In this document: positions 1,486-48,926 of the stretch, in pieces
How the letters are laid out: the number at the start of each line of letters is the position of its first letter
Position numbering within the stretch: the stretch's first letter is position 1
DNA from: Bacteroidia bacterium
Lineage (GTDB): Bacteria > Bacteroidota > Bacteroidia > JAIBAJ01
Direction: 5' to 3'
Assembly: GCA_019695265.1 (NCBI GenBank)
Contig: JAIBAJ010000014.1
Location: 1 to 48,926 of the forward strand
DNA: 48,926 bases
The notes under the pieces: model-generated
Database searches by the model: none
What the model was told of the DNA's origin: nothing
The model's input: only the letters and a program-made list of their open reading frames with translations
Position numbers and translations under genes: made by a program

Positions 1486-1500
1486 TCCAACCTTACCTAT

Positions 1501-21267: not shown

Positions 21268-23709
21268 ATGAAAAAAATCCTACTTTCTCTTCCTATTCTT
21301 TTCTCCGCATTTTTGGTAAACGCCCAAAATTTGGTCGTTAACCCCAGTTTTGAATTAACCTCCAGCAATTGCTCTAACCTAGGTGGTGAAGGGTTTGGAA
21401 CCGACTTGCTGGATTGGGATAATGCCAATTCCAATGCACCGGGCGACTCCTGTTCCTCTCCTGATCTATTTGCCCCCTGCAATACCCTGCCTTTTATTGG
21501 TGGACCTGCCCCAACCAATATGCCTTTCTCTGTACTCGGCTACCAATACTCCAGAACAGGAAACCATCATGCAGGAATTATTACATACGCACCGGGTTTA
21601 GCTACAGGTTGCACCGCCGTAGGAAACGACGATTACCGGGAATATATTCAAGGCCATACTTCCACCTCCTTAACAGCCGGACAAACCTATTGCGTATCCA
21701 TGTATGTGAGCTTGGGTAACAGCGTTATTTGGGCTACCAACAACATTGGAATTCGCTTCTTCAACAATGCTTATTACCGAGATGCATGTGTGGCCGGTTC
21801 TGCTTTAAACTTTACTCCTCATTTAAACTACGATTGTGAACCTATCACAGATACCGCTTCTTGGGTACGTCTGCAATGGAATTATACTGCAACCGGAGGT
21901 GAACGCTATTTTATCATTGGCAACTTTTTCAGCAATGGAAACACACAAGTGGGTTGCAACAATAGCAGTGCAACTACCAATCCTTACGCCTACTATTACA
22001 TTGACGATGTGAGTATTGTCCCTACGCCTTGTTGTGCAGCCGATATCGTTGCTGTTGAACCAATGTGCGCAACCGACAACCCCATCACTCTTACGGCAAT
22101 TCCCGCTACAGGAGCTGATTGTAACCCAACTGTTACCGGAACATGGTCCGGACCCGGTATCACTGACCCTAGCGCAGGAATCTTTTCCCCTGGAGTTGCC
22201 GGACAAGGAATTCACACCATAACCTATACCTTAAGTTGCGGCGCCACCGAAACTACCACCATCACTGTTAGTAATTGTTTAACCCTTTCTGTTTGCCGCG
22301 AAACCAATGGAAACCTAACTGTTTCAGGAGGTGTAGCACCATACCAATGGCAAGCAGATTCAACATATACCGATTGCAGCAATTGCCTGCTTGGACAATG
22401 TTTCCCGGGATTTTGTGATGGAGTACAAGTAACCGTTTGGAATACCTACCTCACCGGTACTACTGCGCCAACACCCGCCTCCTTCCCTATCCGCATTAAT
22501 GATAATCTTGGAAATACAGTTACCTTACTCTCTTCCATAGGGCTGCCAAACTGCTCCGCATGTAACCTTTCTATTGTTCCTCAAGTAAATTCGGCAAGCT
22601 GTGGACAAACAAACGGACAAGCAAGTATTACCGTAGCAGGAGGATCAGGGAACTACACCTATCATTGGAGCAATGGTAGTACAACAGCCACCATTTCCAA
22701 TGTTGCCGCCGGGGCCTATTTCATAACAGTTAACGACGACCAAGGCTGTTTCCTTAATGACACTGTAATTGTTTCTCAAAATTCTAGCATCAATTCTATT
22801 ATTACAGGTAACAGTGTGGTTTGCGGAAACCCTAACTCCGGAAGTATCAACCTTACTGTTACGGGTGGAACCCCTCCTTATTCATTTAGTTGGTCTAATG
22901 GCGCAACAACCGAAGATTTAAACAATGTTGGCGGAGGCAATTATCTCGTTACCATTACTGACAATACCGGTTGTATTAATACCAATTCCTACACCGTACA
23001 ATCTCCTAACGCATTTTCCTTATCTACTACCATTGAAAACGAATCCTGCGACGAATTAAACGATGGCTCCATCGACCTTCAAATTACCGGCGGATCGGCC
23101 CCTTTTACATACAGTTGGAACAACGGTGCCACTACCCAAGATTTAACCAACTTAAGTCCGGGAAACTATACTGTTTTAGTTACAGATAACTCAGGCTGTA
23201 CAAATACCGAAACCTACACCGTTAATGCAGCACCGTATGTTCCAATTACTGTTACTCAAGTTGGAAATCTTCTAACAGCTTCCAGTGCATCTAATTATCA
23301 ATGGTATCTCAATGGAACTGCTATTCCGGGAGCCAATAGTCAAACATATTCTATAACCGAAAATGGCGTTTATTACGTCGAAACAATTATTGGAGGTTGT
23401 AAACACCGCTCTGCCAACCTGGAATTAACCTACAGCAGTATTCAAGATCTGGATGCAATTCGCGCCTTTGTAGTTTATCCCAATCCGGCTAACCAAACTA
23501 TTCAAATTGGTGTAAAACTTAAAAACAGCAGCGATTTTAGCCTGGAACTTAAAAATGTGCTTGGACAATCGCTCTGGATCTTGAACCAAAACAATCAAAA
23601 CCTTTTTGAAACAGAAGTAGACATTCAAACTATTCCCAATGGAGTTTATTTCCTCGAACTAAAAGGTTTGAATTTCCAAAAAAGCATTCAGGTGGTAGCC
23701 ATCCACTAA
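21268..23709 (+). CDS. Large secreted SprB-repeat protein with T9SS sorting domain
   Basis: An 813-residue secreted protein. Signal peptide at 1-19 (FSAFLVNAQ). The first 250 residues begin NLVVNPSFELTSSNC and form a Cys-containing beta-sandwich-like domain ending YYIDDVSIVP, similar in shape to galactose-binding-like domains. Then comes an Ig/PKD-like segment, and from about 437 to 655 three SprB-type repeats of about 70 residues with the shared phrase YSWSNGATTEDLNNV-like, G-x-Y-x-V-x-I-T-D-x-x-G-C. The last 85 residues (VVYPNPANQTIQIG to the end) are a type A T9SS sorting domain. It would cross the outer membrane through the T9SS and stay on or leave the surface. Adhesion is the usual role of such proteins; that is inferred. 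A terminator follows. Confidence 0.88.
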   Translation: MKKILLSLPILFSAFLVNAQNLVVNPSFELTSSNCSNLGGEGFGTDLLDWDNANSNAPGDSCSSPDLFAPCNTLPFIGGPAPTNMPFSVLGYQYSRTGNHHAGIITYAPGLATGCTAVGNDDYREYIQGHTSTSLTAGQTYCVSMYVSLGNSVIWATNNIGIRFFNNAYYRDACVAGSALNFTPHLNYDCEPITDTASWVRLQWNYTATGGERYFIIGNFFSNGNTQVGCNNSSATTNPYAYYYIDDVSIVPTPCCAADIVAVEPMCATDNPITLTAIPATGADCNPTVTGTWSGPGITDPSAGIFSPGVAGQGIHTITYTLSCGATETTTITVSNCLTLSVCRETNGNLTVSGGVAPYQWQADSTYTDCSNCLLGQCFPGFCDGVQVTVWNTYLTGTTAPTPASFPIRINDNLGNTVTLLSSIGLPNCSACNLSIVPQVNSASCGQTNGQASITVAGGSGNYTYHWSNGSTTATISNVAAGAYFITVNDDQGCFLNDTVIVSQNSSINSIITGNSVVCGNPNSGSINLTVTGGTPPYSFSWSNGATTEDLNNVGGGNYLVTITDNTGCINTNSYTVQSPNAFSLSTTIENESCDELNDGSIDLQITGGSAPFTYSWNNGATTQDLTNLSPGNYTVLVTDNSGCTNTETYTVNAAPYVPITVTQVGNLLTASSASNYQWYLNGTAIPGANSQTYSITENGVYYVETIIGGCKHRSANLELTYSSIQDLDAIRAFVVYPNPANQTIQIGVKLKNSSDFSLELKNVLGQSLWILNQNNQNLFETEVDIQTIPNGVYFLELKGLNFQKSIQVVAIH

Positions 23710-24607: not shown

Positions 24608-27358
24608 TTATTTCCTCACGATACGTTTTATTTGCGAAACCGCATTTTGATCTTTCACCTGAACCACATAGGTTCCTTTTTCCAGATCTCCGATTTTAGC
24701 AAGGTAAATACAGCCGTCTGCGCCAGGTCTGATCGAATGGAACTGCTTCACTAACCGACCTTCAAGGGAATAAATTCGAACCGAAGCCTCGGAAACCGTT
24801 CCCGACATTTGAATGCGGATTTGATCTTCGAATGGATTCGGATACACATTAGCAATTTGTAGCGATTGATCTTTTATAGATGTTTGAAAATCAACCAATA
24901 CACTATCAGACTGCGTTTGAACTGAAATAGGCAGACGCTGATGATCAACCAAAACAACATCAGACAATGTAAATGGTACAAATTGAGAAACTGTTTCCTC
25001 GGTTTTACCACTAAGGTTTTCTACGGTAATGCAATACACCTCTCCAATATCACCGAAATTGGAAACAGGTTGTTGATTGATTCGAGTACAAGCAACGTAA
25101 ATTTTACCATTGTTATAATCAACCTTACGAATAGAAATTTGCTCTGATTGGTTTGCACCCATAAAAGTTGAATTGAAACGAAAACCTAGCGAAGAAGGCA
25201 CAATTTGTTCCGGAATGTAATTGATCGTGAAACCGATAGAATATAAGTTTTGAGCAAGGTTGGCAGCATCGCCTAAACGCACCGGCAATGACAAGGCTTG
25301 TCCACCCTGAATAATACTAGTGTAAGGATTAACCACACGCATCAGTAAATCTGCATTCAGGTTGTTTTCCCATTCGGTTTTACCTTCCACCAAACCATAA
25401 TTTTGAATAATTGCCAAGGTATCCTGGCTATCAATGGTACCATCTCCATTGGAATCGCTATGCTTCATGTCGACCCAAGGAAAATTGGCTGCAGGGGCTG
25501 AGAAACCGGCAAACTGAGCCGACCAATCGATAGACTGAGTTGGACGAGCAGAGATTGATTGTCCGTAAAAGGACCCAATATTGAATAAATCCATGTTATT
25601 CACCACAAAATCTCCATTGTTTTCTCCGGGCCACACGGAGTCGCAAGAGTTGGCATCAATAATCAGGTTGTGTTGGTAATTGTTACTTACACAGCCATTG
25701 GCATCATACACTTGAACGGTATAGGACGGAACAACAGATGAAACCACTACAGAAATGGTATCCATAAAAAAGCCATTGCTCCATGAATAAACCATTGGAC
25801 CTGTGCCACTTGAAACACCTGCATACAGACTTGCGCTGGAACCCGGACATGTAGAACTTTGAAGAACGGTATCGATATGAGGAACAGGAAACTGAGTAAC
25901 AAAAACCGAATCGGCACCTTGGCAACCATTTTGGTCGGTCACAAACAGGTAATAAATACCCGGCTGACTAACATTAATACTTTGGGTAGTTTCACCTGTA
26001 CTCCAGGAATACGTTTGATAATTTCCGCTTCCTGTGAGGGAATATAAGTTACCAACGCAAAAGCTACCGGTTGTTCCGCCGGGAATAGCATCTGAAAAGT
26101 CGGTTGGATACAATACAACAGTATCGGTTACAGCACATTCGCCGTTAGAACCAACAACCACATAAACCTGAGAATACATCCCGCTAATAGTTGGATCCAT
26201 TAGAGTTGGATTATCGAGACCGATGGGAGGATTCCAGGCGTAGGTAAGGTTTGGATACGGGGTAAGAGGAGAAATTTGATAAAAGGAGAAAGGACAATAA
26301 GCAATGGAATCGGGGTAATCAAGAGCCGGGGGAACTACTCCATCCAGAATTAGAATGGTATCATAACCTAAACAGCCATACGAATCAGTAACAATTAAAC
26401 TATAGGAACCGGAAGTATTAATTTGGATATTGGAAATAGAGGCATTGGTACTCCACAAATAGGTTGAAAAAGGCGAATTAGTATAAAGGTTGATAGAGGT
26501 ATTTCCGCAGAGATAGGCTTGAGAACCCTGTGCAATAATATTTGCGAAGTTGGTTGTTTGGAAATATATTGTATCATAGACTGAACAACCACCGTTGTTG
26601 GCACTAACGATATAGGACTGATTTCCACCTGAAGGAGTAATAACAGGATTATAAATTCCAATATCAGAAATATCGGCAGAAGGGAACCAGGCATAAGTAA
26701 GAGTATTATCAAAGCCTGAAGGGGTAATTTGCACCTGGTCACCAACACAATAGTTGTAGATGGTTTGATAATTAAGCGGTGCTGGAGTTGGTCCTGCAGT
26801 AACAACAATTGAATCCCAGCCTGAGCAGCCGTTGGATGCCACTCCTGTTAGGTAATAGGTTCCGGGATAATAAACCGAATAGGTGTAGGAAGTAGCGTAT
26901 GGAGAGTTCCAGTAATAATTGGGAACCGGATCACCACCGGGTTCAAAAACGATGGCTTCACCGTCGCAAATAACTGAATCCTGGGTTTGAGATACAATGG
27001 TAATTTGTGGCGAAGGCAAAATGGAAACTGCGATCAGGGTATCTAAGGTATCATTCAGTTCATTGGTAATTTGAATAGCCACCTGGTAAGTTCCAATAGC
27101 CTGATAGGTATGAAAGGCCGAATCGATTAGTTCGGTAGTATTGTTGGTAACCGAATTCAAATCACCAAAATCATAGTGATATTGAAAATTGGAACCATTA
27201 CCGGCAACGATGATATTAAAATTTGCGGAAACACCCAAACAAGGTGAAGGACTAAAATACAAATAGGCAAAACTTAGGGAACCCGGATTAGGATTTGCTG
27301 CTACGTTTAAACTAAGGAGGGATAAGATGAATCCCAACGCTACCAATAACTTTTTCAT
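24608..27358 (-). CDS. Large secreted multidomain protein with dockerin-like and cohesin-like parts and T9SS sorting domain
   Basis: A 916-residue secreted protein. Signal peptide at 1-21 (LLSLNVAANPNP). A PKD-like domain follows at about 28-115 (FQYHYDFGDLNSV), then several Ig/PKD-like repeats (about 115-560) with recurring W-S/N-P and S-Y-S/T-L-x-V-T-D-x-x-G-C phrases. At about 575-650 lie two Asp/Asn-rich calcium-loop-like segments (GENNGDFVVNNMDLFNIG and DSNGDGTIDSQD) as in dockerins. From about 665 to 800 is a beta-domain resembling cohesins (LSLPVRLGDAANLAQNLYSIG). The last 80 residues (IANVYPNPFEDQIRIQM to VRK) are a T9SS type A sorting domain. Surface location is expected; substrate and role are unknown. 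It converges with the SprB-repeat gene across a repeat-rich gap. Confidence 0.85.
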   Translation of the reverse strand: MKKLLVALGFILSLLSLNVAANPNPGSLSFAYLYFSPSPCLGVSANFNIIVAGNGSNFQYHYDFGDLNSVTNNTTELIDSAFHTYQAIGTYQVAIQITNELNDTLDTLIAVSILPSPQITIVSQTQDSVICDGEAIVFEPGGDPVPNYYWNSPYATSYTYSVYYPGTYYLTGVASNGCSGWDSIVVTAGPTPAPLNYQTIYNYCVGDQVQITPSGFDNTLTYAWFPSADISDIGIYNPVITPSGGNQSYIVSANNGGCSVYDTIYFQTTNFANIIAQGSQAYLCGNTSINLYTNSPFSTYLWSTNASISNIQINTSGSYSLIVTDSYGCLGYDTILILDGVVPPALDYPDSIAYCPFSFYQISPLTPYPNLTYAWNPPIGLDNPTLMDPTISGMYSQVYVVVGSNGECAVTDTVVLYPTDFSDAIPGGTTGSFCVGNLYSLTGSGNYQTYSWSTGETTQSINVSQPGIYYLFVTDQNGCQGADSVFVTQFPVPHIDTVLQSSTCPGSSASLYAGVSSGTGPMVYSWSNGFFMDTISVVVSSVVPSYTVQVYDANGCVSNNYQHNLIIDANSCDSVWPGENNGDFVVNNMDLFNIGSFYGQSISARPTQSIDWSAQFAGFSAPAANFPWVDMKHSDSNGDGTIDSQDTLAIIQNYGLVEGKTEWENNLNADLLMRVVNPYTSIIQGGQALSLPVRLGDAANLAQNLYSIGFTINYIPEQIVPSSLGFRFNSTFMGANQSEQISIRKVDYNNGKIYVACTRINQQPVSNFGDIGEVYCITVENLSGKTEETVSQFVPFTLSDVVLVDHQRLPISVQTQSDSVLVDFQTSIKDQSLQIANVYPNPFEDQIRIQMSGTVSEASVRIYSLEGRLVKQFHSIRPGADGCIYLAKIGDLEKGTYVVQVKDQNAVSQIKRIVRK

Positions 27359-31878: not shown

Positions 31879-33582
31879 TTAATTCCTTTCCCTTTTATAA
31901 GGATAAAAATCTACCACTTCGCCCAGTTGGTTCTTACGCTGCATTTCCTTCCAAAACTTCACATAAAACAAATCCTCGTGTTTAGATAGAAACACATCTT
32001 TTAATTTGCCTTGTGGAACCATAAAAGCTCGAAGTTCTTCAGGGAAAATATCGTTTTCATTAACGGTATACCAAACATCGGACGACATTTCATCATAATC
32101 GTCTCTTGAAACAGGTTTAGGTCTAAAATTACATTCTTCCAGCAAACACAGTTCATCATAATCATAAAACACCACTCGTCCATGCCGGGTAACTCCGAAA
32201 TTTTTCATCAATAAATCTCCGGGAAACACATTGGCAGCAGCAAGTTCTTTAACTGCATTTCCATAATCAACTATAGCTTTGGCAGAAGTTTCAAAATCAT
32301 TTTCTTCCACAAACATATTGAGCGGTCGAATTTTTCGCTCGGTAAACAATTGCTTTATAATCAATTGATCTCCTTCCACATAGCAAGTTTCGGAACAAAG
32401 GGTCAATAATTCTTCCAACAAGTCAGGTTCAAACCGATTCAGTTCAAAGTGCATGTACTCAAACTCCTGAGGATCGGCCATTCGTCCAACCCTATCATGC
32501 ATAAAAACCAATCGGTATTGCCTAACAACATGTTCACGAGATATGTTTTTGGGCGGAGCAAATCGATCTTTAATAAGTTTAAAAACATAGTTATATCCCG
32601 GCAAGGTAAACACACTCATCACCATCCCTTTTATTCCGGGGGCAAACATGAATCTGTCGTTAGAATGATCCAGGTAAAATTGAAATTCCTTTACCTGCAC
32701 CGTTTTAGCATGTCTGTTATAACCTATCGAACTAAAAAGCTCACTAACCGGTTTGTTTGGCATTATGCTATGTAAGAAATGCACACATTCCAAGGGATTT
32801 TCAGCTCTAACAAAAAAGTAAGACCGGGTAAAACTAAAAATCATACTTACCTCGTCTACATTGGTTATGATGGCGTCCAAAATGGCTCCGCCTTCAGGAT
32901 GCACCAATGGGATACACAATGGAACGATGGTATTGCCTAAAAAAACCCTTCCCATGATATATAAACCTTTACCTCGGTAAAAGTGTGGCTTTACAATATC
33001 AATACGGGTAATTTCAGTAGTTGAATAGGTTGCCATCAAATCCATTTCCAACTTTTCAGCCAAGTAGCATATATCACTTTCTAAATCAGCAAACTTGAAC
33101 CTAAAACCGAAATCAGCTATAATTTCGGTCAATAATTCGGTTTTATTTTTCCCTTTTGGATAATAAATCCTGAAAATTGGATTGAAAGGATCCTTAGTCA
33201 AACTTTCCGAGGCAAAAGGTATAAACTCAATTTCCTCTGTAATCCCTTCTGTAATATATATTTTTCGTAAAACCGAATTGAAAAAAGATTCAACAATAGG
33301 ACCATCATGACGTTCAGCAATGGCATGTGAAAATTCATTCTTGGCCTCTACCCAAAACTCCTTGGATGCAACATAATCAGGAAAACGATCATTAATTGTG
33401 GTTACGCACCTCGAAACATGTTCTTTGTAAAGATCCAATCGGCGGTTATTGGCTTCTTTAATTTCATGCCACCTCCTAAAGGTAAATCGATCACCGGCCA
33501 ATCCTGTTTCAAAAAAGAATAGCCTGTGAAAACTATCAAAACTTAAAAGAATATGTTCAGCAACGAGTTTGTAACTTTCCAT
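31879..33582 (-). CDS. aceK: Isocitrate dehydrogenase kinase/phosphatase
   Basis: A 567-residue AceK, the normal length. It phosphorylates and dephosphorylates isocitrate dehydrogenase to switch carbon between the TCA cycle and glyoxylate bypass. Matches to the E. coli protein are long: IAESFFNSV-like VESFFNSVLRKIYIT near 85, APGIKGMVMSVFTLPGYNYV near 313-332 (nucleotide loop), FKLIKDRFAPPK, HDRVGRMADPQEFE, and GDLLMKNFGVTRHGRVVFYDYDE near 455-478, which holds the catalytic Asp about residue 475. The start is only 4 bases after the asnS stop. Isocitrate lyase and malate synthase genes, its usual partners in enterobacteria, are not in the window. Confidence 0.95.
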   Translation of the reverse strand: MESYKLVAEHILLSFDSFHRLFFFETGLAGDRFTFRRWHEIKEANNRRLDLYKEHVSRCVTTINDRFPDYVASKEFWVEAKNEFSHAIAERHDGPIVESFFNSVLRKIYITEGITEEIEFIPFASESLTKDPFNPIFRIYYPKGKNKTELLTEIIADFGFRFKFADLESDICYLAEKLEMDLMATYSTTEITRIDIVKPHFYRGKGLYIMGRVFLGNTIVPLCIPLVHPEGGAILDAIITNVDEVSMIFSFTRSYFFVRAENPLECVHFLHSIMPNKPVSELFSSIGYNRHAKTVQVKEFQFYLDHSNDRFMFAPGIKGMVMSVFTLPGYNYVFKLIKDRFAPPKNISREHVVRQYRLVFMHDRVGRMADPQEFEYMHFELNRFEPDLLEELLTLCSETCYVEGDQLIIKQLFTERKIRPLNMFVEENDFETSAKAIVDYGNAVKELAAANVFPGDLLMKNFGVTRHGRVVFYDYDELCLLEECNFRPKPVSRDDYDEMSSDVWYTVNENDIFPEELRAFMVPQGKLKDVFLSKHEDLFYVKFWKEMQRKNQLGEVVDFYPYKRERN

Positions 33583-38297: not shown

Positions 38298-38490
38298 CCC
38301 AGGTTCCACCGCCAGTTTCACAACTTGATTTTTCCAAGTTGTATGCTGTATTTTGAACCACCATACCGTTAGAGCAGTATGAAGAAGAGGTATAGCCATA
38401 GGAATCTTCACAATGCCCACATTTTTTGCAGGATGAAAATCCAATGATGCCGATAGCAAGTAAACCAAAAATTGTAATTCCTTTTTTCAT
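38287..38490 (-). CDS. Small Cys-rich lipoprotein (paralogue 1)
   Basis: A 67-residue lipoprotein with a signal ending GIIGFSSC (lipid Cys about residue 21). The short mature part begins CKKCGHCEDS and contains YCSNG and CETGGGTW. It is a paralogue of the protein at 38682-38873, which has CKKCGHCEIS, YCTKD and CTANSGEW in the same order. Five mature cysteines could bind metal or form disulfides. Function unknown. It runs convergent to the ABC permease with an 11-base overlap and divergent from its paralogue. Confidence 0.75.
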   Translation of the reverse strand: MKKGITIFGLLAIGIIGFSSCKKCGHCEDSYGYTSSSYCSNGMVVQNTAYNLEKSSCETGGGTWVKD

Positions 38491-38512
38491 GATGTTAGGT
38501 TTTAATGTGTTA

Positions 38513-38545
38513 CAAAAGTAATACTATAAGAGACAAACGCGCCAA
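38513..38545 (-). promoter_or_regulatory. Promoter of small lipoprotein paralogue 1
   Basis: On the minus strand, TTG (38545-38543) is followed after 22 bases by TACTTTTG (38520-38513). The predicted start is about 18 bases upstream of the ATG at 38490. Confidence 0.5.
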
Positions 38546-38639
38546 TTTCCTCGATGTACTGCCAGAAATTCACTTTTATGACTTTTAATAGGTAGTAAGA
38601 ATTTTCTTTTTTTGGATGTAAATGATATCCATAAACCAA

Positions 38640-38647
38640 TACTTTTG
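38640..38647 (+). promoter_or_regulatory. -7 promoter element of small lipoprotein paralogue 2
   Basis: TACTTTTG, the same 8-mer used by the divergent paralogue, ends 34 bases before the ATG at 38682. It also falls inside a longer in-frame frame starting at 38622, which argues against that earlier start. Confidence 0.45.
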
Positions 38648-38681
38648 GTCACAAATCATTATTAACCTAAAAACAAAAAAA

Positions 38682-38873
38682 ATGAAAAGATTTTTTTCAA
38701 TTGTTGCAATTGCTGCCTTTGCAGTAGCATCTATGGCTTCTTGTAAAAAATGTGGTCACTGCGAAATCAGCGGTATTACCGGTCCATCTTATTGCACAAA
38801 AGACAGCCAAACTTTGTATGATGCTGCAAAAACATCTTGCACTGCTAACTCAGGAGAATGGGTAACTGAATAA
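38682..38873 (+). CDS. Small Cys-rich lipoprotein (paralogue 2)
   Basis: A 63-residue lipoprotein, MKRFFSIVAIAAFAVASMASC (lipid Cys about residue 21), then CKKCGHCEISG, YCTKD, and CTANSGEWVTE. The ATG at 38682 is chosen because it starts the signal peptide; an in-frame ATG 60 bases earlier precedes the proposed transcription start. It is paralogous to 38287-38490 and transcribed away from it, so the pair looks like an inverted duplication. A strong terminator follows. Function unknown; metal binding by the CKKCGHC motif is a guess. Confidence 0.75.
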   Translation: MKRFFSIVAIAAFAVASMASCKKCGHCEISGITGPSYCTKDSQTLYDAAKTSCTANSGEWVTE

Positions 38874-38889
38874 TTTCAGCCTAACCTAC

Positions 38890-38923
38890 AAAAAAGCCAG
38901 TTTCGATTGAGACTGGCTTTTTT
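38890..38923. terminator. Bidirectional hairpin terminator
   Basis: AAAAAAGCCAGT (38890-38901) pairs perfectly with ACTGGCTTTTTT (38912-38923). A and T runs on both sides make it usable by the lipoprotein gene on the plus strand and by the envelope operon arriving on the minus strand from 39039. Confidence 0.85.
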
Positions 38924-39038
38924 ATTGATTTGCTATGGAAGAACAAGGAGCTTAGCAGACGCATACTTTAGAGAAAAGGACCAGAATAAATGTGAAATAA
39001 AATGGAACCAACAAATCTCCTGAGCAAAAGAAAAGCAT

Positions 39039-41003
39039 TTAAAAGCCAGTAGGTTTAGGATAATCCGGTGGGATAGTTAAACCATCCTGAACCATGATAA
39101 TATCTTTGAAAGTTTCAGGAATATAATCTCCTTTATCATAGACAGTTATAGTTTCCTGAATAGGTTTATATCCAATAGCCTTAATTAATATATCATATTT
39201 TCCTTGTTGCAGGGCCAAAACGTAGTTACTTTTACGTTTGTTAGGACGAATGGTGGCATAGATTTCAGATTCACCGGCTCTTCTAACTTCAAAGGTAAAA
39301 ATCACCTCTTTACGCTCTTTAAAAGAGAAATAGTCTACCTCCACTTTAGCTGCATCTTTTGGATCCAATTTAACCTTTGTAATTTTGGTATCCATCCATT
39401 TAAAATCCTTTAAATCTTTTGGCAATTTCTCAGCAGGATAGGTTTGCATAGTACCTTTCATGGTACCAACAATTTTAACATCGTACTTATAACCGGCTTC
39501 TAAGGGCAGATATTTCTCTTCTTTAAACTTCCAACCTGATTCTTTAGGAGGCAAGTAAGCATCGGTAAATTGCTTATCGCTACCATTTTTAGTATAAACC
39601 TGCACTTTAAATCCCTTTGAAATAGCTTTTTCAGCGAAGGCGATTTTACCAATAACAGCAGTAAGTTCAGGGGCAACATCATTGTATGTAACCATATAAA
39701 CGTCCAAATCACCTTGACCTTCGGGTCTAATTTGTGACAAATACCCATGTCGGCCATTTCTAGGGGCAGAGAAGGTAAAATTATCGTCGGTAGTATTTAG
39801 GGGATAACCAAGATTGGTTGGCCTATTCCATCGTTTATTTTTATCATCCCAAGTAGCTTTAAACACATCAAAGCCCCCCATGGAGTTATGTCCTTTTGAA
39901 CAAAAATACAGGGTTTTACCATCGGCAGACAGGTTAGGGAAATCCTCATCATAAGGGGTATTAATTTGAGGCCCAAGATTTATTGGCTCACCCCAATCAC
40001 CATTTGGCAGGCGATATGAAATAAAAATATCAGTTCCACCAAATCCTGCTTTATCATCCAAAGGAGTTCTGGAGAAATATAAAATATCTCCTTCTGAATC
40101 AGTAGTAGCAGACGTTTCGGTTTCTAAGGTATTAATGGTTGGTCCCAGAGTTTTTGATTTTTGAAAAGATTTACCTTTCTTTTCGGAAACCCAAATATCA
40201 TCGTAACCCTCCATGTTATCAATTCCAACAAACAGGTATTTTCCATCTGCCGAAAGTCCAACCAATTCTTCAACGAATTCTGTATTAACAAGCGGACCTA
40301 GGTTTTTGGCTTTGGCATATTCGCCTTTTTTCACCTCGGAATAGAAAACATCGGCACATTTATAGCCATCAAAATCGATATTTGCACCAACCACGTCATT
40401 TCTTTTAGTGGAAAATGCCACATAGTCCTCTTCATCCGGTGCAAAAGGATTGTAATCGGCGAAAGGAGTATTTACTTTAGGACCTAAGTTAGTAAAAGAA
40501 ACATTAACAGGTGTTTTCATCAACTTTTGTGCATTCTCGCACATTTCAATTTGACGAACTACATCCAGCATTTTAGCAGGTTCTGCTTTGGGGTCTATTT
40601 TTGTTTTAAGAAGTTCGAAAGTTTTAATTGCTTCGGCAAGCTTATTATTAACCAAATAGGCTCTACCGAGGTCGTATATTTGATCTTTAGTAGCAGAGGG
40701 CTTGAGAGCGACAAACTCCAGATAAGGAATTGCCTTAGATTTATCAAAATTGGTATAAAGGTAACATACCCCGGCTTTATAGTTGTATTCTAAGTTACTT
40801 GGGTCTTTTTTAACCAAGGCTTCATATTCTTGTAAGGCTGCCACATAATTACCGAGAGAAAAATTATCCTTCGCTGCCTTATTATCACCATTACCTTGTT
40901 TGGGAGGTGGCGCACCCGGACGAGGTGCCAATTGAGACCAAGCCAAATCAATAGAAAGGAAAAAGGAAATGAAAAGAAAAAAAATAGGGATTCTTAATGC
41001 CAT
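39039..41003 (-). CDS. TPR/PD40 exported protein (PorE-like without OmpA tail)
   Basis: A 654-residue exported protein, signal peptide at 1-24 (LSIDLAWSQ). A TPR region (about 45-135) reads NFSLGNYVAALQEYEALVKK and DLGRAYLVNNKLAEAIKTFE. A PD40 beta-propeller (about 165-430) has repeated phrases such as DYVAFSTKRNDVVG, LSADGKYLFVGIDN and LSADGKTLYFCSKGHNSMGGFDVF. A C-terminal region (about 440-640) contains regulatory beta-sandwich-like domains ending GKYDILIKAIGYKP. The TPR and propeller match the gene at 45129-47372 closely, but the OmpA domain is missing. It is the last gene of the four-gene operon, 33 bases after the coiled-coil gene. A structural envelope role is inferred. Confidence 0.85.
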   Translation of the reverse strand: MALRIPIFFLFISFFLSIDLAWSQLAPRPGAPPPKQGNGDNKAAKDNFSLGNYVAALQEYEALVKKDPSNLEYNYKAGVCYLYTNFDKSKAIPYLEFVALKPSATKDQIYDLGRAYLVNNKLAEAIKTFELLKTKIDPKAEPAKMLDVVRQIEMCENAQKLMKTPVNVSFTNLGPKVNTPFADYNPFAPDEEDYVAFSTKRNDVVGANIDFDGYKCADVFYSEVKKGEYAKAKNLGPLVNTEFVEELVGLSADGKYLFVGIDNMEGYDDIWVSEKKGKSFQKSKTLGPTINTLETETSATTDSEGDILYFSRTPLDDKAGFGGTDIFISYRLPNGDWGEPINLGPQINTPYDEDFPNLSADGKTLYFCSKGHNSMGGFDVFKATWDDKNKRWNRPTNLGYPLNTTDDNFTFSAPRNGRHGYLSQIRPEGQGDLDVYMVTYNDVAPELTAVIGKIAFAEKAISKGFKVQVYTKNGSDKQFTDAYLPPKESGWKFKEEKYLPLEAGYKYDVKIVGTMKGTMQTYPAEKLPKDLKDFKWMDTKITKVKLDPKDAAKVEVDYFSFKERKEVIFTFEVRRAGESEIYATIRPNKRKSNYVLALQQGKYDILIKAIGYKPIQETITVYDKGDYIPETFKDIIMVQDGLTIPPDYPKPTGF

Positions 41004-41036
41004 GAATTTAGTCTAATTTCAGATGCTTAGGTTAAA

Positions 41037-44000
41037 TTAATTTCCTTTATACTTCTTAACTTCCAAATCAAAGAGTGTAGCAGTAATGGTAATATCACCA
41101 TTTTTAAAGTAGAACACCCCACCCCAATTCCATGTTTTCTTTTCGTACACATTTAATTGGCCTTGGTTATTAACTATCAGGCGATACAATTTAAACTCCT
41201 TTTCCTGGATATTTTCTTCTGTAACACCATTTGGGTAAATGGAGGCCAATTGAGAAAGGAATTGTTCTCTTCTTTCTTTTTCAGACAATTTAGAACGTTC
41301 CATGTTGATTTTGGCCTCTTCAAATTTCCTCTTACGTTCTTCTTCACTTAATTTATCAGCTTGTTGAGATTTTGCTAAATAAGCAGCGGTAGAGGCTTTT
41401 CTTATAGAATCTTGTTTAGCTTGTTCTTTTGCGAATGCCAAACGGGCTTCTGCTTCCTTTTTTCTTTTTTCCTCATCTGCTTTGGCTTTCTGTTCTGCTT
41501 CAAGTTTCAGTTTAGCCTCCAATTCTGCTTTTGCTATAGCTTCAGATTCAAGTTTTTGTTTTCTTTCCAGCTCCATTTTCGCTAAAAGATCTGCTTTGGC
41601 TTTGGCTACTGCTGCCTCTTTAGCCAATCGTTCCTCTTCTGCAAGTCGCTTAGCTTCTTCATCAGCCTTTTGTTTAGCCAAAAGTGCTGCTTGTTCGGCT
41701 TCCTGTTTGGCTTTTCTTTCTGCAACCAAACGCTCACGTTCCATTTGTTCCTCTCTTTGCTTTTGTTCAACTGCTATTTGAATTGCTCTTTCTCTAGCAA
41801 TTCGTTCTTGTTCATCCTTCAACCTTTTCTCTTCTGCCAATCTTTGTTTTTCTGCTGCAAGCTTTTGAGCTGCTTCTTCTTTTTGTTTAGAGGCTAACAA
41901 TTTTTCTTCTCTTTCTTTTGCATCACGGGCCGCTTTAGCTTCTGCTGCTAACCGAATAGAAGCTTCTCTTTCCAATCGTTCTTGAGTTTCTTTTGCCTGA
42001 CGCTCTGCTTCAATTTTGGCCTTTTGTTCAGCAGCAATTTGAGCGGATGCTTGTTTATTTAGCCTCTCCACTTCTTCACTAATTCTTCTTTCTGCTTCAA
42101 TTTTTTGCTTTTGTTCAGCTAAAGCAATAGCTGCTGCATCTCTTTCTCTTGCCTGTTGAGCTTTCTTTTCCCGCAATGCTGCATCCTTTTCCTTTTCAGC
42201 TTCCAGAGCTAAACGCTGAGCCTCAGCTCTTTCACGACGTTCTTGTTCGGCTTTTGCTTCCCTTTGAACTTCCAATCTGGCTTTTTCTGCCGATGCAACT
42301 TGTGCTGCACGTTCTTTTTCTATTCTAGCTTTTTCAATTGCCTCTCTGTTTACTTCATCCTTCTTCACCTTTTCGATATACTCAGCTAAGTTAGCTTCTT
42401 CCTTTGCCCTTAAATCAGATTCCATCTTGGCCAATTCATTGGATTTACGAATCTCTTCCGCTCTAGCACGTTCCTTAGCTTTTACTTCTTCTTCAGCTTT
42501 TAGTTTGGCTTCTTGTTGGGCCAAAGTGGCGGCGGCAATACGTTGTTGTTCTTCTTTGGCTTTTCTATTTGCTTCTTCAACAGCAATTCTTTTTGCCTCT
42601 GCACTAGCTAATTCAGAGGTAGACGACTTTGCCTGTTGCAATTTAGCCTCTCTTTCTTGTTCTAACCTTTTAATCTTTTCCTCCTCTTCTCTTATTTTCT
42701 TCAATTCTGCTTGCTGTGCATCAATTTCTTGAATCTTCTTTTTATTTCTTTCTTCATTCAACTCAGCCAATTCTGTTTCCAACTTTCCAACTTGTTGAGT
42801 TTGTGCTTGCTTAATTTGTGCAGCAATTCTAGCCTCTTCCGCCTTTCTTTCCACTTCAGATGCTTTTAATTGAGCCTGACTAATTCTGCGAATTTCATCC
42901 TCTCTGGCTTTGGAATCTTCTTCCAGTTTCTTTAAACTTTTCTTTTGTTCTTCTGCCATTATCAGTTGTTGATCAACTTCTTGTGACGAAATCTGGCTTC
43001 GAGTTTTAAATTCTTCTTTTTTCCTTGTATCCTCGGCGATTTCCTTCTCCAGCATTACATTTTTATACTTGTTCTCCAATTGTGTTGCAACAGCAGCATC
43101 GGCAGCTGCAAACAAAGAGGTTACATCAATGGTTGAATTTACCTGTCCTGACTTTTCGAGCTTAGCTTTTTGCTGAAGGTAATTTTCGTACATAGCTGCG
43201 GCACGCTCTTCTTTGAAATCCGCATTTGGTGGCAAAGTATTGGCAATTTCCCTGATAATTAATGTTTTATTTTCTGCTCCTTTTTTAACTGCAACTTCGA
43301 ATCGAATTCGCTTTTCCAATTCGACCTTCCTTTGCTCTTCGGCTTTCACTTCTTCAATTTTCTTTTGAGCTTCCTTCATAGCCTGTTGCTTGGCAATACG
43401 CTCTTGTTCTTCTTTTGAAACTACAGGCTTTTGCCCAGGCAATTCAGGAATTTTCGGGGTTACATAGTCTCCATTTTCCAAATCTTCCTGAGCTTTGTTG
43501 GCAGCACCAAAAAGGGATTGAAAGTCGATACCGGTTCCTGCTGTTCCACCTGAACTTTGCGCCCTTTTTAAATCATTAACATATTGAACATACATTGATT
43601 TAGCCTTTTCCTTTTTAAAAGGATCATTCTTTTCAAAAGTGGATTCAAACCCTGCAAGAATGGCATTCGGGTCTCCATTGGCTTCTTTAATTGCCTTAGT
43701 AATTTTATCAATTGCTATTTGTTGGGTTTTATTAGACTTTTCAGCCTCTTTTCTTTGGTATTCCTTAACACCTTGAGTATTCTTAAAAGTTGTTCTTGCG
43801 TCATCTTCTGCAATGGCTTTTGTTTCAGCCATTTCGGCAGCGGAAAAAAGAGCACCAAAATCTAAATCTGATTTTGCAACACCTCCTTTAGCCAAGGTTT
43901 TCTTTGCATATTCTTCAAAGATAGCTTCAGCCTTTACTTGTGCATATGGATCATTTTTGGGGAAAGTTTGCTTTAAAGCTTCAATGGTTAAATCTTTATC

Positions 44001-45068
44001 ACCTCCACCCTTAACAATGGATTCGGCAACTTTTTTATTGAAATCCTCTTTGGCTTTAGCTTTCTTCTCTTCTTCCAATTTGGCTGCCATTTCCAATTTG
44101 GTGGTCATTTCGCTTTTAACAGCCAATTGTTGCTGTTTAAAAACCTCTTCTTGAGTTTTGGCTGCAGCTTCCTTTTTGGCTAGAATTTCTTTTTCCTTTT
44201 CAATGATTTCTTTATCTTGAGCTTGCTTTAATTGCTCACCCACAATTTTTGCTGCTTGAACAACAGATTTATAATCAATAACCTCATTAGGATTTGAAGC
44301 AACTTTGCTTTTTTCAGAAAGGTACTTTTCATACATAGCTTCCGCCTTTTCATCCTGGAAAGTCTGACCTTGAAGCATAGTTTGTTTAAATTGATTCAAA
44401 ATGGCAGGTTTATCATTTCCGGCAATTTGAAGTGCCTTTTCAATTTTTTCTTCAGCAACTTTTGATTCTGCATCTTGATACTTTTTGGCTTTTTCATTGA
44501 GTGCAGCCTTTTCTTCGGCAGCAATCCTGGCCATTTCAAGTTTTTCCAAACGTTCTCTTTCTTTTCGTTCTTCCTCTTCTTGTTCCTCTTTAGTATAATC
44601 CAATTCATAATCAAAAGAGGACTTCTTAATATGATAAAAGACATTGGCCACCGGTCTAACAAACTTTTTTCCATCCTTATCAGGAATCATATCGACAATA
44701 AATTCGAATTTAGAAACAGAATCCAATTTGGATTCTTTTATTTCTGTATCAAACCGTACTTTCTTAGTTGTATATCCGCCTTTAGAGCATTCAATAAGAT
44801 ATACTGTATTGTAGCGCAATTTAAATTTAAACTTGGCATTATTTGGAGTTACCATTTGTTCTTGTTGAACATAGGTCCCATTTTTAGCGGTATCTACATA
44901 CAATGTAACAAGACAACCTTTCAAACCGGCCGACATCTCATTGGAACTACCATTGATTTCCAAATAGCCCTTATATTGGGCAAATGAACTGAAACTCAGT
45001 ATAAGAAACAAAAAAGTAAAAACTCTTTTGATACCGGTAGGGGAAATAAAGTAAACTTTTTCTAGCAC
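41037..45068 (-). CDS. Giant exported coiled-coil protein with four internal repeats
   Basis: A 1343-residue protein with a signal peptide (about 14-31, FLILSFSSFAQ). Residues 32-150 form a beta-rich domain resembling transthyretin-like carriers (GLKGCLVTLYVDTAKNG, YNTVYLIECSKGGYTTKK). Four related units of about 75 residues follow, at about 206-280, 346-418, 453-530 and 587-662. They share I-x2-A, D/N-K/P, an I-L-x2-F-x2-T-like helix, DP[F/Y]xxEKAxAMYExY and I-D-[F/Y]-x-S-L-F-x-A-A. Residues about 690-1265 are a long Glu/Lys/Ala/Arg coiled coil. The last 80 (FKLYRLIVNNQGQLNVYEKK) are a small beta domain. It lies between two TPR/PD40 genes. I know no named family; a periplasm-spanning rod is inferred. 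Confidence 0.8.
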   Translation of the reverse strand: MLEKVYFISPTGIKRVFTFLFLILSFSSFAQYKGYLEINGSSNEMSAGLKGCLVTLYVDTAKNGTYVQQEQMVTPNNAKFKFKLRYNTVYLIECSKGGYTTKKVRFDTEIKESKLDSVSKFEFIVDMIPDKDGKKFVRPVANVFYHIKKSSFDYELDYTKEEQEEEERKERERLEKLEMARIAAEEKAALNEKAKKYQDAESKVAEEKIEKALQIAGNDKPAILNQFKQTMLQGQTFQDEKAEAMYEKYLSEKSKVASNPNEVIDYKSVVQAAKIVGEQLKQAQDKEIIEKEKEILAKKEAAAKTQEEVFKQQQLAVKSEMTTKLEMAAKLEEEKKAKAKEDFNKKVAESIVKGGGDKDLTIEALKQTFPKNDPYAQVKAEAIFEEYAKKTLAKGGVAKSDLDFGALFSAAEMAETKAIAEDDARTTFKNTQGVKEYQRKEAEKSNKTQQIAIDKITKAIKEANGDPNAILAGFESTFEKNDPFKKEKAKSMYVQYVNDLKRAQSSGGTAGTGIDFQSLFGAANKAQEDLENGDYVTPKIPELPGQKPVVSKEEQERIAKQQAMKEAQKKIEEVKAEEQRKVELEKRIRFEVAVKKGAENKTLIIREIANTLPPNADFKEERAAAMYENYLQQKAKLEKSGQVNSTIDVTSLFAAADAAVATQLENKYKNVMLEKEIAEDTRKKEEFKTRSQISSQEVDQQLIMAEEQKKSLKKLEEDSKAREDEIRRISQAQLKASEVERKAEEARIAAQIKQAQTQQVGKLETELAELNEERNKKKIQEIDAQQAELKKIREEEEKIKRLEQEREAKLQQAKSSTSELASAEAKRIAVEEANRKAKEEQQRIAAATLAQQEAKLKAEEEVKAKERARAEEIRKSNELAKMESDLRAKEEANLAEYIEKVKKDEVNREAIEKARIEKERAAQVASAEKARLEVQREAKAEQERRERAEAQRLALEAEKEKDAALREKKAQQARERDAAAIALAEQKQKIEAERRISEEVERLNKQASAQIAAEQKAKIEAERQAKETQERLEREASIRLAAEAKAARDAKEREEKLLASKQKEEAAQKLAAEKQRLAEEKRLKDEQERIARERAIQIAVEQKQREEQMERERLVAERKAKQEAEQAALLAKQKADEEAKRLAEEERLAKEAAVAKAKADLLAKMELERKQKLESEAIAKAELEAKLKLEAEQKAKADEEKRKKEAEARLAFAKEQAKQDSIRKASTAAYLAKSQQADKLSEEERKRKFEEAKINMERSKLSEKERREQFLSQLASIYPNGVTEENIQEKEFKLYRLIVNNQGQLNVYEKKTWNWGGVFYFKNGDITITATLFDLEVKKYKGN

Positions 45069-45128
45069 TGCCTCACAAAATTAAAATGCAGCACTAAAAT
45101 ACAATTTGTTGGGAAATAAAAAATGGAA

Positions 45129-47372
45129 TTATTTCTTAATACTTAAAATTTTCACTTCAAGTCGACGATTCATCCTTCTACCCTCGGGATTGTCGCTTCC
45201 ATCGGGGTTCTGGTTAGCAGCAATTGGAGTACTTTTACCATAACCTTTAGGTACCAATCGTTTTCCTTTTATCCCCTTTGAAACTAAATAATCATAAACA
45301 CCTTGAGCACGAGCTTTGGATAGTTTTAAATTATACTCTATTGAACCTCTAGAATCGGTGTGACCGCTTAATTCAATTGTAACACTTGGATTATTCAAAA
45401 GAAATTTGTAAAGTCGTTCCAAGGCATCATAATAATCTTTTCCAAGATTGGCTATATCGAAGTCGAAGAAAAAGACATCACTCAACACCATTTTATCTCC
45501 AACTTTAATGTTGGCAATATCCGCTTCAAATAAATCGGTACGATATCCTTTTTCTTTCAAATTTTTCAACCTTTCAACTTCTGCCTCTAATTTACGAATA
45601 TCCTCCATTAGGGCCAATTCGGACTGTTCTTTTGCCAGGTCTTTGAATTCCGATTTGGTGTATGCTGAAACTTGCGAAGGCGTACTGGAAATTTGAGCTT
45701 TAAATCGTTTGCGTGCAATGGCGTCAGAATCCGGTTCTAAAGTAAAATCCTTATCTTCAATTAAAGGAATATAGGAACTTTTATCAAATGCCTCAACTAC
45801 TTCTGAATATGGTTTATACAACTCTGATTCAATATAAACACAATATGTATGTCCGGCAGGTAATACACTCAAATAATGGCCGGTACCTTTATTGGCACGA
45901 TACAAACCGATTAATTCATTCGTTTCGTCATCCGTGATATACATTTGAATTGGAACAACCGGTTGACCTGCTTTTAAGGTATCCACCATATTAGTAATAT
46001 ACCCAGCCATTATGGTGTAATCAGGTTCTACATCATTAAAAGTGATACGATAAATATCCAAATCTCCAAAACCTTCGGGCCTTAAGGCCGAAACATAACC
46101 ATATCGACCACTTTTGGAGAAATAAATTGAATATTCATCCCCAACAGTATTAATTGGATAGCCCAAATTAGAAGGAGAACCCCAAGTTTCTGTAACTGGA
46201 TTCCAAACTGATTTAAATACATCCAAACCACCCATGTTGGTATGACCTTCAGAAGAAAAAAACAAGGTTTTTCCATCACCTGATATATGGGGGTGAGTTT
46301 CATTGTATTTAGTATTAACATTCGGACCTAAATCAATTGGTATACCCCACAATCCGTTAGGCAGCCTTCTGGACATAAAAATATCCGTATTGTAACCACC
46401 AATTCCACCTTTGGCAATTCTGGTAAAAAACAACCAATCACCATCTGCTGAAATAGAACCGGATGATTCAACCTCTTCTGAATTTACATTTGAGCCAGGG
46501 TTATAGGGCTCTTCAAAAGCTCTACCTTTCCTTTTGGAAATCATGATATCATCATACCCATCAAAATTATCTATAAAAAGCACCAAATTTTCTCCATCAG
46601 GAGATAAACCAACTGCCTCTTCAACCCACTCTGTGTTAATAGATGATCCGGCATTCCTACCTTCCGTAAACCTTCCTCTTTTTTCTCTTGCCCTGTAAAC
46701 ATCATTCATCTTAAATCCATCGTAATCATTCTCAAGTCCAAGATTATCAGGCCTTTTTGTATTGTAAATCAGGAAAGACTCATTTTCGGGGACCATAGGA
46801 TCAAAATCCGGATAAGGAGAGTTGATAGAACTACCCAAATTCTCAAAATTACAATCTATAGGGTTCTTTCTAAACTCTTTAGCGTTAATACACATCTCAA
46901 TCCATCTAGATGGCTTTGGACCGTTTACTTCGGTATCACCTTCTTCAGCCTTGGCTTTATCAAAAGCACGAATAGCATCATCTAATCGATCTGCATACAT
47001 ATACGCCCTCCCTAAGTGATAAAAGGCATCTTTTGGATGTTTTGTTTGCTCTGCAACAAACTCCAAATAACTTACTGCCTTAACCTTGTCAATATTTGTT
47101 TGAAGGTAGCACAATCCAATGTAGTAATTATAATCTACATTTTTAGGATCGTTGACTAGCATTAAAAGGTAATCTTCAAGTGCAGATTTAAAATTCTCAT
47201 TAAAGAAATTCTCCTTTGCAATTGATGTCTTAGGCTTGTAAGGTTTCTCCTTACTTTTCAACTTTCCTCCTGTGTTCAGACTATCTTGGGCGTTAGAAAA
47301 AGTAAATGAAAAAGCGAATACAAAGGCAAGCCCCAATATTCGATAATTCACAACCTTAACTAGTACATTCAT
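45129..47372 (-). CDS. PorE-like envelope protein: TPR, PD40 propeller, OmpA domain
   Basis: A 747-residue exported protein. The start at 47372 (MNVLVKVVNYRILGLAFVFA) gives the best signal peptide, ending FTFSNAQ; an in-frame start 33 bases earlier is possible. TPR repeats (about 50-140) are followed by a PD40 propeller (about 165-440: SFLIYNTKRPDNLG, LSPDGENLVLFIDNFDGYDD, ISGDGKTLFFSSEGHTNMGG). A regulatory-like domain, a short coiled coil (about 580-610) and a C-terminal OmpA domain (about 625-747: ELSGHTDSRGSIEYN, LSKARAQGVYDYL, NRRLEVKI) follow. OmpA domains bind peptidoglycan. The order matches PorE, which anchors the T9SS to the cell wall, but several Bacteroidota paralogues share it, so I leave the symbol blank. 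Confidence 0.87.
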   Translation of the reverse strand: MNVLVKVVNYRILGLAFVFAFSFTFSNAQDSLNTGGKLKSKEKPYKPKTSIAKENFFNENFKSALEDYLLMLVNDPKNVDYNYYIGLCYLQTNIDKVKAVSYLEFVAEQTKHPKDAFYHLGRAYMYADRLDDAIRAFDKAKAEEGDTEVNGPKPSRWIEMCINAKEFRKNPIDCNFENLGSSINSPYPDFDPMVPENESFLIYNTKRPDNLGLENDYDGFKMNDVYRAREKRGRFTEGRNAGSSINTEWVEEAVGLSPDGENLVLFIDNFDGYDDIMISKRKGRAFEEPYNPGSNVNSEEVESSGSISADGDWLFFTRIAKGGIGGYNTDIFMSRRLPNGLWGIPIDLGPNVNTKYNETHPHISGDGKTLFFSSEGHTNMGGLDVFKSVWNPVTETWGSPSNLGYPINTVGDEYSIYFSKSGRYGYVSALRPEGFGDLDIYRITFNDVEPDYTIMAGYITNMVDTLKAGQPVVPIQMYITDDETNELIGLYRANKGTGHYLSVLPAGHTYCVYIESELYKPYSEVVEAFDKSSYIPLIEDKDFTLEPDSDAIARKRFKAQISSTPSQVSAYTKSEFKDLAKEQSELALMEDIRKLEAEVERLKNLKEKGYRTDLFEADIANIKVGDKMVLSDVFFFDFDIANLGKDYYDALERLYKFLLNNPSVTIELSGHTDSRGSIEYNLKLSKARAQGVYDYLVSKGIKGKRLVPKGYGKSTPIAANQNPDGSDNPEGRRMNRRLEVKILSIKK

Positions 47373-47465
47373 AACACTTATTTCTGAAAATTTTACGAAC
47401 TGCAATGCTACATTTTTTATTCGACAAATCCGAGTTATTTTAAACCTATAAATAAGATTGTCTTT

Positions 47466-48926
47466 TTATCTAAATATTTTTATTTCTATCCGACGATTCA
47501 ATTGTCTGTTTTCAGGATTATCAGTACCATTTGGATTGGAATTGGGGGCTATGGGCTGAGTTTCTCCATATCCAACGGCCCTTAACCTTTTTCCATTTAT
47601 CCCTTTGGCAGACAAATGCTCCATTACTGCGGCGGCACGATCTTTACTTAAACTTAAGTTGTACTCATCATTACCTTTAGAATCAGTATGACCCCCAATT
47701 TCAATATTCAAATCAGGGTGCATGACAAGGTAATTATACAATTTATTTAATTCAGGGAAAGACTCCCTTTTTAAGAAAGACTTATCGTAGTCAAAATAAA
47801 TATTCTTCAAAATTACCTTTTTGTTTTCTCTCAACTGAGAAAAATCATCATCATCCACATAGGTTTGTTCCACCTTTACTTCAGGAGCATCTTCTTGCAT
47901 AATCAGACTCTTGATAGTAGCATTTCTTTGATTAGCCTCTTGAAGCCTTGCCTTTTGAAACTCCAATTCTTTTGCTAAAAACTCTACTTTATCTGCCAAT
48001 TCCTTCATCTCTTCTCTCAACAATCGATTATCGTTTTCAAGTTCTCCAATTCTTTTCTTCTGCGTTGCAATTGTCTTTTGCATCTCCCCACTTTCATACT
48101 GTACTTTTAATTCATACTGCTCTTTCTCCTTCTTTTCTTGATCTGCTTTCAATTTTGCTTTTAAGGCCAATTGATTTTGAACTTTGGCAATAGAATCAGC
48201 CACTAACTTCTCTTTTTGAGCTCTTTTCGCTTCCTCCTTCGCCAAAGCCAACTTTTGTCTTTCTTCTTCCGCTTTAGCTTGCGCAGCTTTTCTCTCTTCA
48301 GCTATTTGAGCGGATCTTGCTTCTTGCTCTTCTTTCAATTTAGCAGCTTGAGCTCTTTGTTGTTCCTCTTTTAATTTAGCCTCGTTCTCTAATTTAACTC
48401 GTTGTTCTTCCTTAATTCTTAAATCTTCCAAAGCTTTTCTTTTTGCTTCTTCAATTGCTTTTTTCTTTTGAATTTCATCTGCCTCCAATTTTGCTTGTTT
48501 AAAGGCGGCCTCTTTTTCTTTCAGAACAGCCAAAGCTGCCTGTTCTTCTGATTGGTTAGCTTTAATTTCTTGTTCTAATTTCGTTAAAGCATCAGAAATG
48601 CTTTCTCCTTCTTTTATTCCAAGTTTAGCTCTTTTTAAGGTATTTTCAGCTTCCAATTGAGCCTTTTTTGTTTCTATGGCTTTTAACTCAGCGGCTTCTT
48701 TAGCTTTTTGAGCTGCCAATAATTTTGTTTTGGCTGCTGCTGCTGCTTTAATTTCAGCTTCCTTCTTGGCTTTAAGCTCTGCAGATTCCTTAGCATTAGC
48801 TACTTGCTGATTTGCTGATTGAGCTGCCTTTTGGGCTTGGGCGGCTTCTTTTGCCTTTTTACTTGCAAGTACTTGAGCTTCATCTGCTTGCAATTTCAAA
48901 CGTTCATACTCTGAGTTTGCCAGGGC
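47466..48926 (-). CDS. Coiled-coil protein with C-terminal OmpA domain (N-terminus beyond window)
   Basis: The frame is open to the window edge, giving 486 residues; residues upstream of the first possible TTG (48899) still read as the same coiled coil (ANSEYERLK), so the true start lies outside. About 330 residues of Ala/Lys/Glu/Gln-rich coiled coil, with a leucine-zipper-like end (IGELENDNRLLREEMKELAD), lead into an OmpA domain: VILKNIYFDYDKSFL, EIGGHTDSKGNDEYNLSLSK, GYGETQPIAPNSNPNG and NRRIEIKI. The expected peptidoglycan-binding Asp and Arg are present. It is the first visible gene of the four-gene operon, about 90 bases before the PorE-like gene. A rod anchored to the cell wall is the likely form. 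Confidence 0.85.
   Translation of the reverse strand, partial: ALANSEYERLKLQADEAQVLASKKAKEAAQAQKAAQSANQQVANAKESAELKAKKEAEIKAAAAAKTKLLAAQKAKEAAELKAIETKKAQLEAENTLKRAKLGIKEGESISDALTKLEQEIKANQSEEQAALAVLKEKEAAFKQAKLEADEIQKKKAIEEAKRKALEDLRIKEEQRVKLENEAKLKEEQQRAQAAKLKEEQEARSAQIAEERKAAQAKAEEERQKLALAKEEAKRAQKEKLVADSIAKVQNQLALKAKLKADQEKKEKEQYELKVQYESGEMQKTIATQKKRIGELENDNRLLREEMKELADKVEFLAKELEFQKARLQEANQRNATIKSLIMQEDAPEVKVEQTYVDDDDFSQLRENKKVILKNIYFDYDKSFLKRESFPELNKLYNYLVMHPDLNIEIGGHTDSKGNDEYNLSLSKDRAAAVMEHLSAKGINGKRLRAVGYGETQPIAPNSNPNGTDNPENRQLNRRIEIKIFR

Follow-up and report, generated by a model that had tools for sequence, protein, structure and literature searches.

What do four neighbouring genes at the end of a Bacteroidia contig build together, and in which part of the cell envelope? 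The stretch analysed here (the window) is the whole of contig C14, 48,926 bases long, from the 213-contig genome assembly of an uncultured bacterium, and the four genes (g1, g2, g3 and g4, in this order) form a minus-strand run at its right end. A first-pass annotation had read them as one envelope-spanning machine of anchors, rods and propellers, possibly linked to the type IX secretion system (T9SS) or to gliding. We find it well founded that g1-g4 form one assembly, whose products would then bind one another, and we put the probability that they are parts of one periplasmic scaffold, on the outer-membrane side and tied to peptidoglycan, at roughly 0.5.

47466..48926, minus strand: g1, C-terminal 486 amino acids, an Ala/Glu/Lys-rich rod followed by an OmpA domain; open at the contig end
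47526..47798, minus strand: OmpA domain of g1; the D..N..R residues for peptidoglycan binding are present
45129..47372, minus strand: g2, signal, TPR, PD40 propeller and OmpA domain; PorE-like, not PorE
45198..45470, minus strand: OmpA domain of g2, with the F-D..D..YN..R spacing of PorE (PMC7192894)
41037..45068, minus strand: g3, giant rod of 1343 amino acids, GTG start, without a Pfam family
39039..41003, minus strand: g4, 654 amino acids, signal, TPR, PD40 propeller and C-terminal region; without OmpA

The coordinates of the open reading frames (ORFs) bear out the annotated layout, with four genes on the minus strand and gaps of 93 (g1-g2), 60 (g2-g3) and 33 bases (g3-g4). The first gap is counted from an ATG at 47372, the likelier start of g2, whose ORF spans 45129-47405. 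As annotated, two of the proteins end in OmpA domains (g1 and g2, E ~4e-19 each). PD40 matches were found in g2 (E 8e-11) and g4 (E 6e-11), while TPR matches were weak.

Relatives keep the four genes in one run

We searched 247 genomes of the class with a profile of the front half of g3 (E <= 1e-15). It matched in 22 of them, covering the repeats of g3 in 14 (G000, G003, G049, G091, G155, G185, G045, G009, G053, G095, G128, G159, G189 and G216) and essentially the head region in the other eight. The rod gene is thus present in families f1 (1/1 genomes), f4 (5/7), f10 (7/8) and f46 (1/1), and in 0/230 of the remainder; the three misses inside f4 and f10 are incomplete genomes (68-87%). The first-pass annotation had proposed asking whether the four genes stay together, and in these 14 genomes from four families they do: wherever the order could be read, g3 was followed by g4 (13/13), g2 by g3 (12/12) and g1 by g2 (10/10, with g1 of G189 split into two ORFs).

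In relatives the four genes stand inside a larger block, E2-up5-g1-g2-g3-g4-exonuclease-FAA hydrolase. A fifth TPR-PD40 gene, up5, precedes g1 in eight of nine cases and the exonuclease-FAA hydrolase pair follows g4 in 12 of 13, the sole exceptions being the window's own locus. In the window genome E2 lies on C21, up5 on C2 and the exonuclease-FAA pair on C46, yet g1-g4 are still adjacent. That both flanks were lost while the four genes were kept is the best evidence that they belong together. The up5 gene of this genome (L058:7733-9409) now stands beside FtsW/RodA-like and MurD-like ORFs, named by eye.

More distant loci came from a contig scan with a g4 alignment, which gave 79 loci from the best 80 of 111 matches. 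In nine of these (L079, L082, L088, L093, L106, L111, L118, L131 and L142), one to five PorE-like genes stand immediately 5' of the same exonuclease-FAA pair, without a rod; L118 belongs to a cultured species, Brumimicrobium salinarum. By blastp, the E2 dehydrogenase subunit was present at 13 of 15 array loci, the other two being L106 and L180, where the stretch starts at up5. Bacteroidota-type genes of this sort also occur in records labelled Chitinophaga pinensis, Competibacteraceae, Kuenenia and Actinomyces (L066, L068, L124, L130, L141); several of these names of metagenome-assembled genomes are probably wrong.

The missing start of g1 probably lies on another contig

The g1 proteins of relatives have a TPR-PD40-rod-OmpA order over ~1160-1550 amino acids, uniting propeller, rod and anchor in a single chain. 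A 283-residue TPR-PD40 fragment at the edge of contig C61 of the same genome (C61:3-851) shares 54-58% identity with the beginning of g1 from G003, G049 and G009, whereas a rival contig-edge fragment on C122 reaches just 31-37% with the same proteins. The C61 fragment is very probably the N-terminal part of g1, as judged from orthology and position only; the middle of g1 is unsequenced, and the C14 end and C61 share no k-mers. Since the next ORF on C61 is divergent and 175 bases away, the operon probably starts with g1. The annotated continuation of the set past the right edge therefore holds for the remainder of g1 but not for further genes, and the count of two TPR-PD40 proteins, right for g2 and g4, very probably rises to three of four.

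g2 and g4 arose in place and are not PorE

Alternatively, the operon could be a row of diverged PorE-like copies arranged in tandem, each with its own partners, which common expression keeps together and which form no single complex. In a tree of 136 TPR-PD40 regions, made with a quick method, g2 and g4 are sister groups inside a clade of 20 rows that come only from arrays (SH-aLRT 98). This clade is nested in one of 30, the rest of which are short genes without OmpA, mostly adjacent to the exonuclease. Sister groups inside an array clade indicate duplication in place, and on this tree g2 and g4 are the products of a local duplication; g2 probably acquired its OmpA domain. Full-length g1 proteins from relatives fall in a different array lineage. 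The duplication suits an array of independent copies, as do the one to five genes found at the same place in relatives and the presence of about a dozen PorE-like genes in the genome (search with g2). However, the unrelated g3 separates g2 from g4 wherever the order can be read, and g1-g4 stayed together after the loss of both flanks. We consider an array without a common complex rather unlikely.

The domain order of PorE (TPR, propeller, CRD, OmpA) is present in g2, its CRD part by profile alignment only, and the spacing of the peptidoglycan-binding residues is alike as well. Scores for the NCBIfam PorE model NF052230 are nevertheless far under its cut-off of 600 bits, with 233.8 for g2, 161.6 for g4 and 88.3 for the C-terminal part of g1; the genome's own PorE, on contig C3, reaches 619.9. 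We rejected g2 as PorE on the basis of this score, the true PorE on C3 and the tree, which groups neither g2 nor g4 with PorE, although the placement of long rows (the genome's PorE, a long branch, and L147) is unsure. The T9SS argument that had been drawn from a PorE-like member is not supported, and genes that look like PorE should not be taken for T9SS genes, since the real PorE of this genome lies elsewhere. The operon further differs from PorE (PG1058) in that several such proteins are combined with a rod. The nearest named model for g2 is that of CHU_0125 (NF053607), a family with the same domain set; g2 (257.4 bits) and g4 (162.8) are again under the cut-off (620), and CHU_0125 is not a four-gene set. 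A P. gingivalis study gives 2 to 13 PorE homologues per species (PMC5053529).

In family f10, g2 carries a canonical WD40 propeller inserted before the OmpA domain (L056:11995-15159; WD40 E 1.5e-57 in the G009 copy), so that a single protein with an export-type start holds two propellers. The length of this g2 is nearly constant (1054-1056 amino acids in G053, G095, G189 and G216).

Export-type starts and two probable wall anchors

By eye, the protein starts read as Sec signals with AQ or SQ at the end. None of the 64 full starts, which comprise the array proteins of 20 loci, rods included, and two stand-alone OmpA genes, matched a simple lipobox pattern; the start of the genome's PorE has no typical lipobox either, as judged by eye. 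No window protein of the set shows a membrane helix after the signal, g1-g4 lack a T9SS sorting tail, and the set contains no inner-membrane gene. We therefore rejected the idea that the set reaches the inner membrane; the envelope-spanning machine of the first-pass annotation is not supported.

In the PorE crystal structure the side chains of Asp576, Asn584 and Arg591 bind the peptide (PMC7192894). The D..N..R spacing of PorE is kept in 28 of 28 OmpA domains, two of which belong to stand-alone OmpA genes near the arrays L131 and L142, and g2 also keeps a Phe-Asp pair 34-35 residues before these residues. Both g1 and g2 hence carry a Pal-type domain with intact peptidoglycan-binding residues.

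The g3 rod is likelier a single charged helix than a coiled coil

We divided g3 into a head, four repeats, a long rod and a tail.

44637..44963, minus strand: head, transthyretin-like beta sandwich, residues ~36-144 (best Foldseek E 0.017, not significant)
44241..44444, minus strand: helical repeat 1, residues 209-276
43827..44030, minus strand: helical repeat 2, residues 347-414
43491..43703, minus strand: helical repeat 3, residues 456-526
43092..43301, minus strand: helical repeat 4, residues 590-659
41235..42785, minus strand: rod, a run of 517 residues free of Gly and Pro (46% K/R/E, 20% A)
41040..41261, minus strand: conserved tail domain with a WNWGG motif

Structure models of g3 are of modest quality (front: mean pLDDT 69.7, pTM 0.25; tail: mean pLDDT 61.0, pTM 0.44), so we claim no overall shape. 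The front model shows the beta sandwich and then long helices, interrupted by short-helix units that correspond to the four copies of a ~70-residue repeat, which the first-pass annotation had overlooked. Foldseek returned nothing at E <= 0.001 for the head with repeats or for the tail; the best matches of the head, largely transthyretin-like, had E values no better than 0.017. Searched by sequence against solved structures, the front half had no match better than E 0.23, and we found no Pfam name for the repeat. The repeat profile, built on the four copies in the window, gave three to six matches in each other g3 examined, with three only in cut genes, and was not found in g1 or in stand-alone rods.

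The 517-residue run compares with a longest Gly/Pro-free run of 112 residues on average, and 239 at most, in 1000 shuffles of g3; in the other 13 g3 genes, three of them cut, it measures 106-478 residues, the 106 of G045 being unremarkable. The run contains 16% ILVMF and shows no heptad signal, which, together with its richness in Lys, Arg, Glu and Ala, makes a single charged helix likelier than a coiled coil. Of the two long coiled coils that had been annotated, g3 is thus probably none, and the rod of g1, shorter within the window, shows a weak 3.5-residue signal.

Stand-alone exported rods of 913-3124 amino acids occur in several Bacteroidia (L152:2021-11395, L154, L155, L156, L158), and one more is encoded in this genome (C1, 1257 amino acids). 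Like g3 they have a signal and a charged rod, with the g3-type head and/or the NWGG-type tail; unlike g3 they lack the four repeats and stand alone among unrelated genes. No family name was found for these head-rod-tail proteins.

A charged helical rod next to propellers, TPR parts and Pal-like domains recalls Tol-Pal (TolA, TolB, CpoB, Pal). The set might be a moving Tol-Pal-like system, in which fusions of the PorE type (CpoB-, TolB- and Pal-like) are pulled by an inner-membrane motor and the rod carries the force. One paper has suggested that PorE itself serves Bacteroidetes as a compact Tol-Pal (PMC12204202), and the TolA model gives a weak match to the g3 rod. This match (22.4 bits, cut-off 59.45) is confined to the charged helix, and we rejected g3 as TolA. 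Moreover, the start of g3 is of the cleavable type and leaves the rod without an inner-membrane anchor, the domains of g1-g4 are fused otherwise than in Tol-Pal, and no motor gene was seen in or beside the operon, its neighbours being judged by profile hits and by eye. A force-carrying system of this kind appears improbable.

No demonstrable link to T9SS or gliding

The main rival explanation makes the set an accessory of T9SS or gliding, for example by anchoring PorP-like barrels and their static type B cargo. Such a role has precedents: parts of the published accounts describe PorE as binding PorP and type B cargo (PMC9143113), report five operons in F. johnsoniae that combine a PorE homologue with a type B substrate and a shuttle (PMC12618676), and suggest that the PorE-like proteins of this species hold static type B proteins in place via PorP-like barrels (PMC9143113, PMC12618676). 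PorE-like wall anchors are common to those operons and to ours; however, we found no PorP-like gene or type B cargo gene in or beside the present one. The three PorP-like genes of the genome are on contigs C32, C68 and C84, and a separate PorE is available on C3.

We next considered co-occurrence, since the presence of the set had been expected to track T9SS or gliding genes. SprA was over cut-off in 14 of 14 operon genomes; as it is so in 240 of the 247 class genomes, its presence there is uninformative. GldJ exceeded its cut-off in 13 of the 14 operon genomes, with the 14th having GldJ split over two contigs, compared to 15 of the 32 others given. The 14 genomes represent only four families, so that this difference is not independent evidence; counted by family it becomes 4/4 versus 15/32 (p ~0.07). 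The support of GldJ for a gliding link is at most weak and confounded with lineage. The gldH gene that had served as a further hint is real (3490-3951; 115.6 bits, cut-off 78.7) but lies 35 kb from the operon. Taken together, an accessory role in T9SS or gliding seems unlikely to us.

Around gldH, a minus-strand stretch at 739-3951 holds uppS, a porG-like gene (97 bits, under the cut-off of 130) and gldH close together. Elsewhere in the window, two proteins have T9SS type A sorting tails (21268-23709 and 24608-27358), one with SprB repeats and one with PKD domains.

A proposed passive scaffold between outer membrane and wall

Two anchors, three platforms, a rod, export-type starts and no inner-membrane part fit a passive scaffold. 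In the arrangement that we favour, the C-terminal OmpA domains of g1 and g2 would grip peptidoglycan, the TPR and propeller parts of g1, g2 and g4 would offer a platform where the parts and their outer-membrane partners meet, and the g3 rod, with the shorter rod of g1, would set the distance from anchor to platform. The job would likely be a passive one, strengthening or organising the outer membrane, similar to CHU_0125 or to the Pal-like role proposed for PorE. CHU_0125 keeps the outer membrane of Cytophaga intact and its loss damages this membrane, as described in part of one report (PMC5891637), and a 2025 paper proposed an outer-membrane-to-wall role for PorE (PMC12204202).

Several points weigh against the scaffold. 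None of the g1-g4 proteins has an outer-membrane anchor of its own, hence contact with that membrane needs a partner. The adjacency of the sister paralogues g2 and g4 stems in part from local duplication, and the operon is confined to four families. Established here are the gene set, its domains and export-type starts, the kept order and binding residues, the repeats and the rod; mutual binding of the products, their place in the envelope and their function we infer.

The periplasm is a few tens of nanometres thick. As one straight helix, the longest Gly/Pro-free run of g3 would measure ~78 nm, against 16-72 nm for the runs in the remaining 13 g3 genes. Rods longer than the periplasm is thick would have to lie along the wall between OmpA anchors. 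They might then build a lattice or rail in the periplasm, against the inner face of the outer membrane, which we regard as a long shot; if true, bacteria would have an envelope skeleton of a new kind. A rail under the outer membrane of a gliding Flavobacterium, with GldJ named as a component, is described in part of a published account (PMC9870892). The rod lattice is a candidate for a rail of this type, the two being unconnected by the present data.

Overall, the parts of the scaffold are of known kinds, and the operon is a variant of PorE-type outer-membrane-to-wall proteins. Literature searches, with subscription papers mostly outside their scope, found no published account of the operon, its place, the repeat or the rod family. 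One survey detected no pal genes in Bacteroidetes, where the fastening of the outer membrane to the wall is an open question (PMC12204202). For this fastening, the conserved operon, with its wall-binding propeller proteins and a rod of its own, is a concrete candidate.

Other features of the window

Downstream of g4 we noted a hairpin.

38890..38923, no strand assigned: hairpin of 15 pairs, flanked on either side by runs of A and T and located between g4 and a convergent ORF

The hairpin is a possible two-way terminator; terminator-like sites overall showed no excess over shuffles. Promoter-like sites in 38300-48926 were likewise not in excess (26 versus 23.9 in shuffles), and Rfam and tRNA searches across the window gave no match. 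The ORF convergent with g4 (38622-38873, 83 amino acids) has a signal-like start and several cysteines. At 31879-33582 the window encodes an isocitrate dehydrogenase kinase/phosphatase of full length (666.7 bits against a cut-off of 488).

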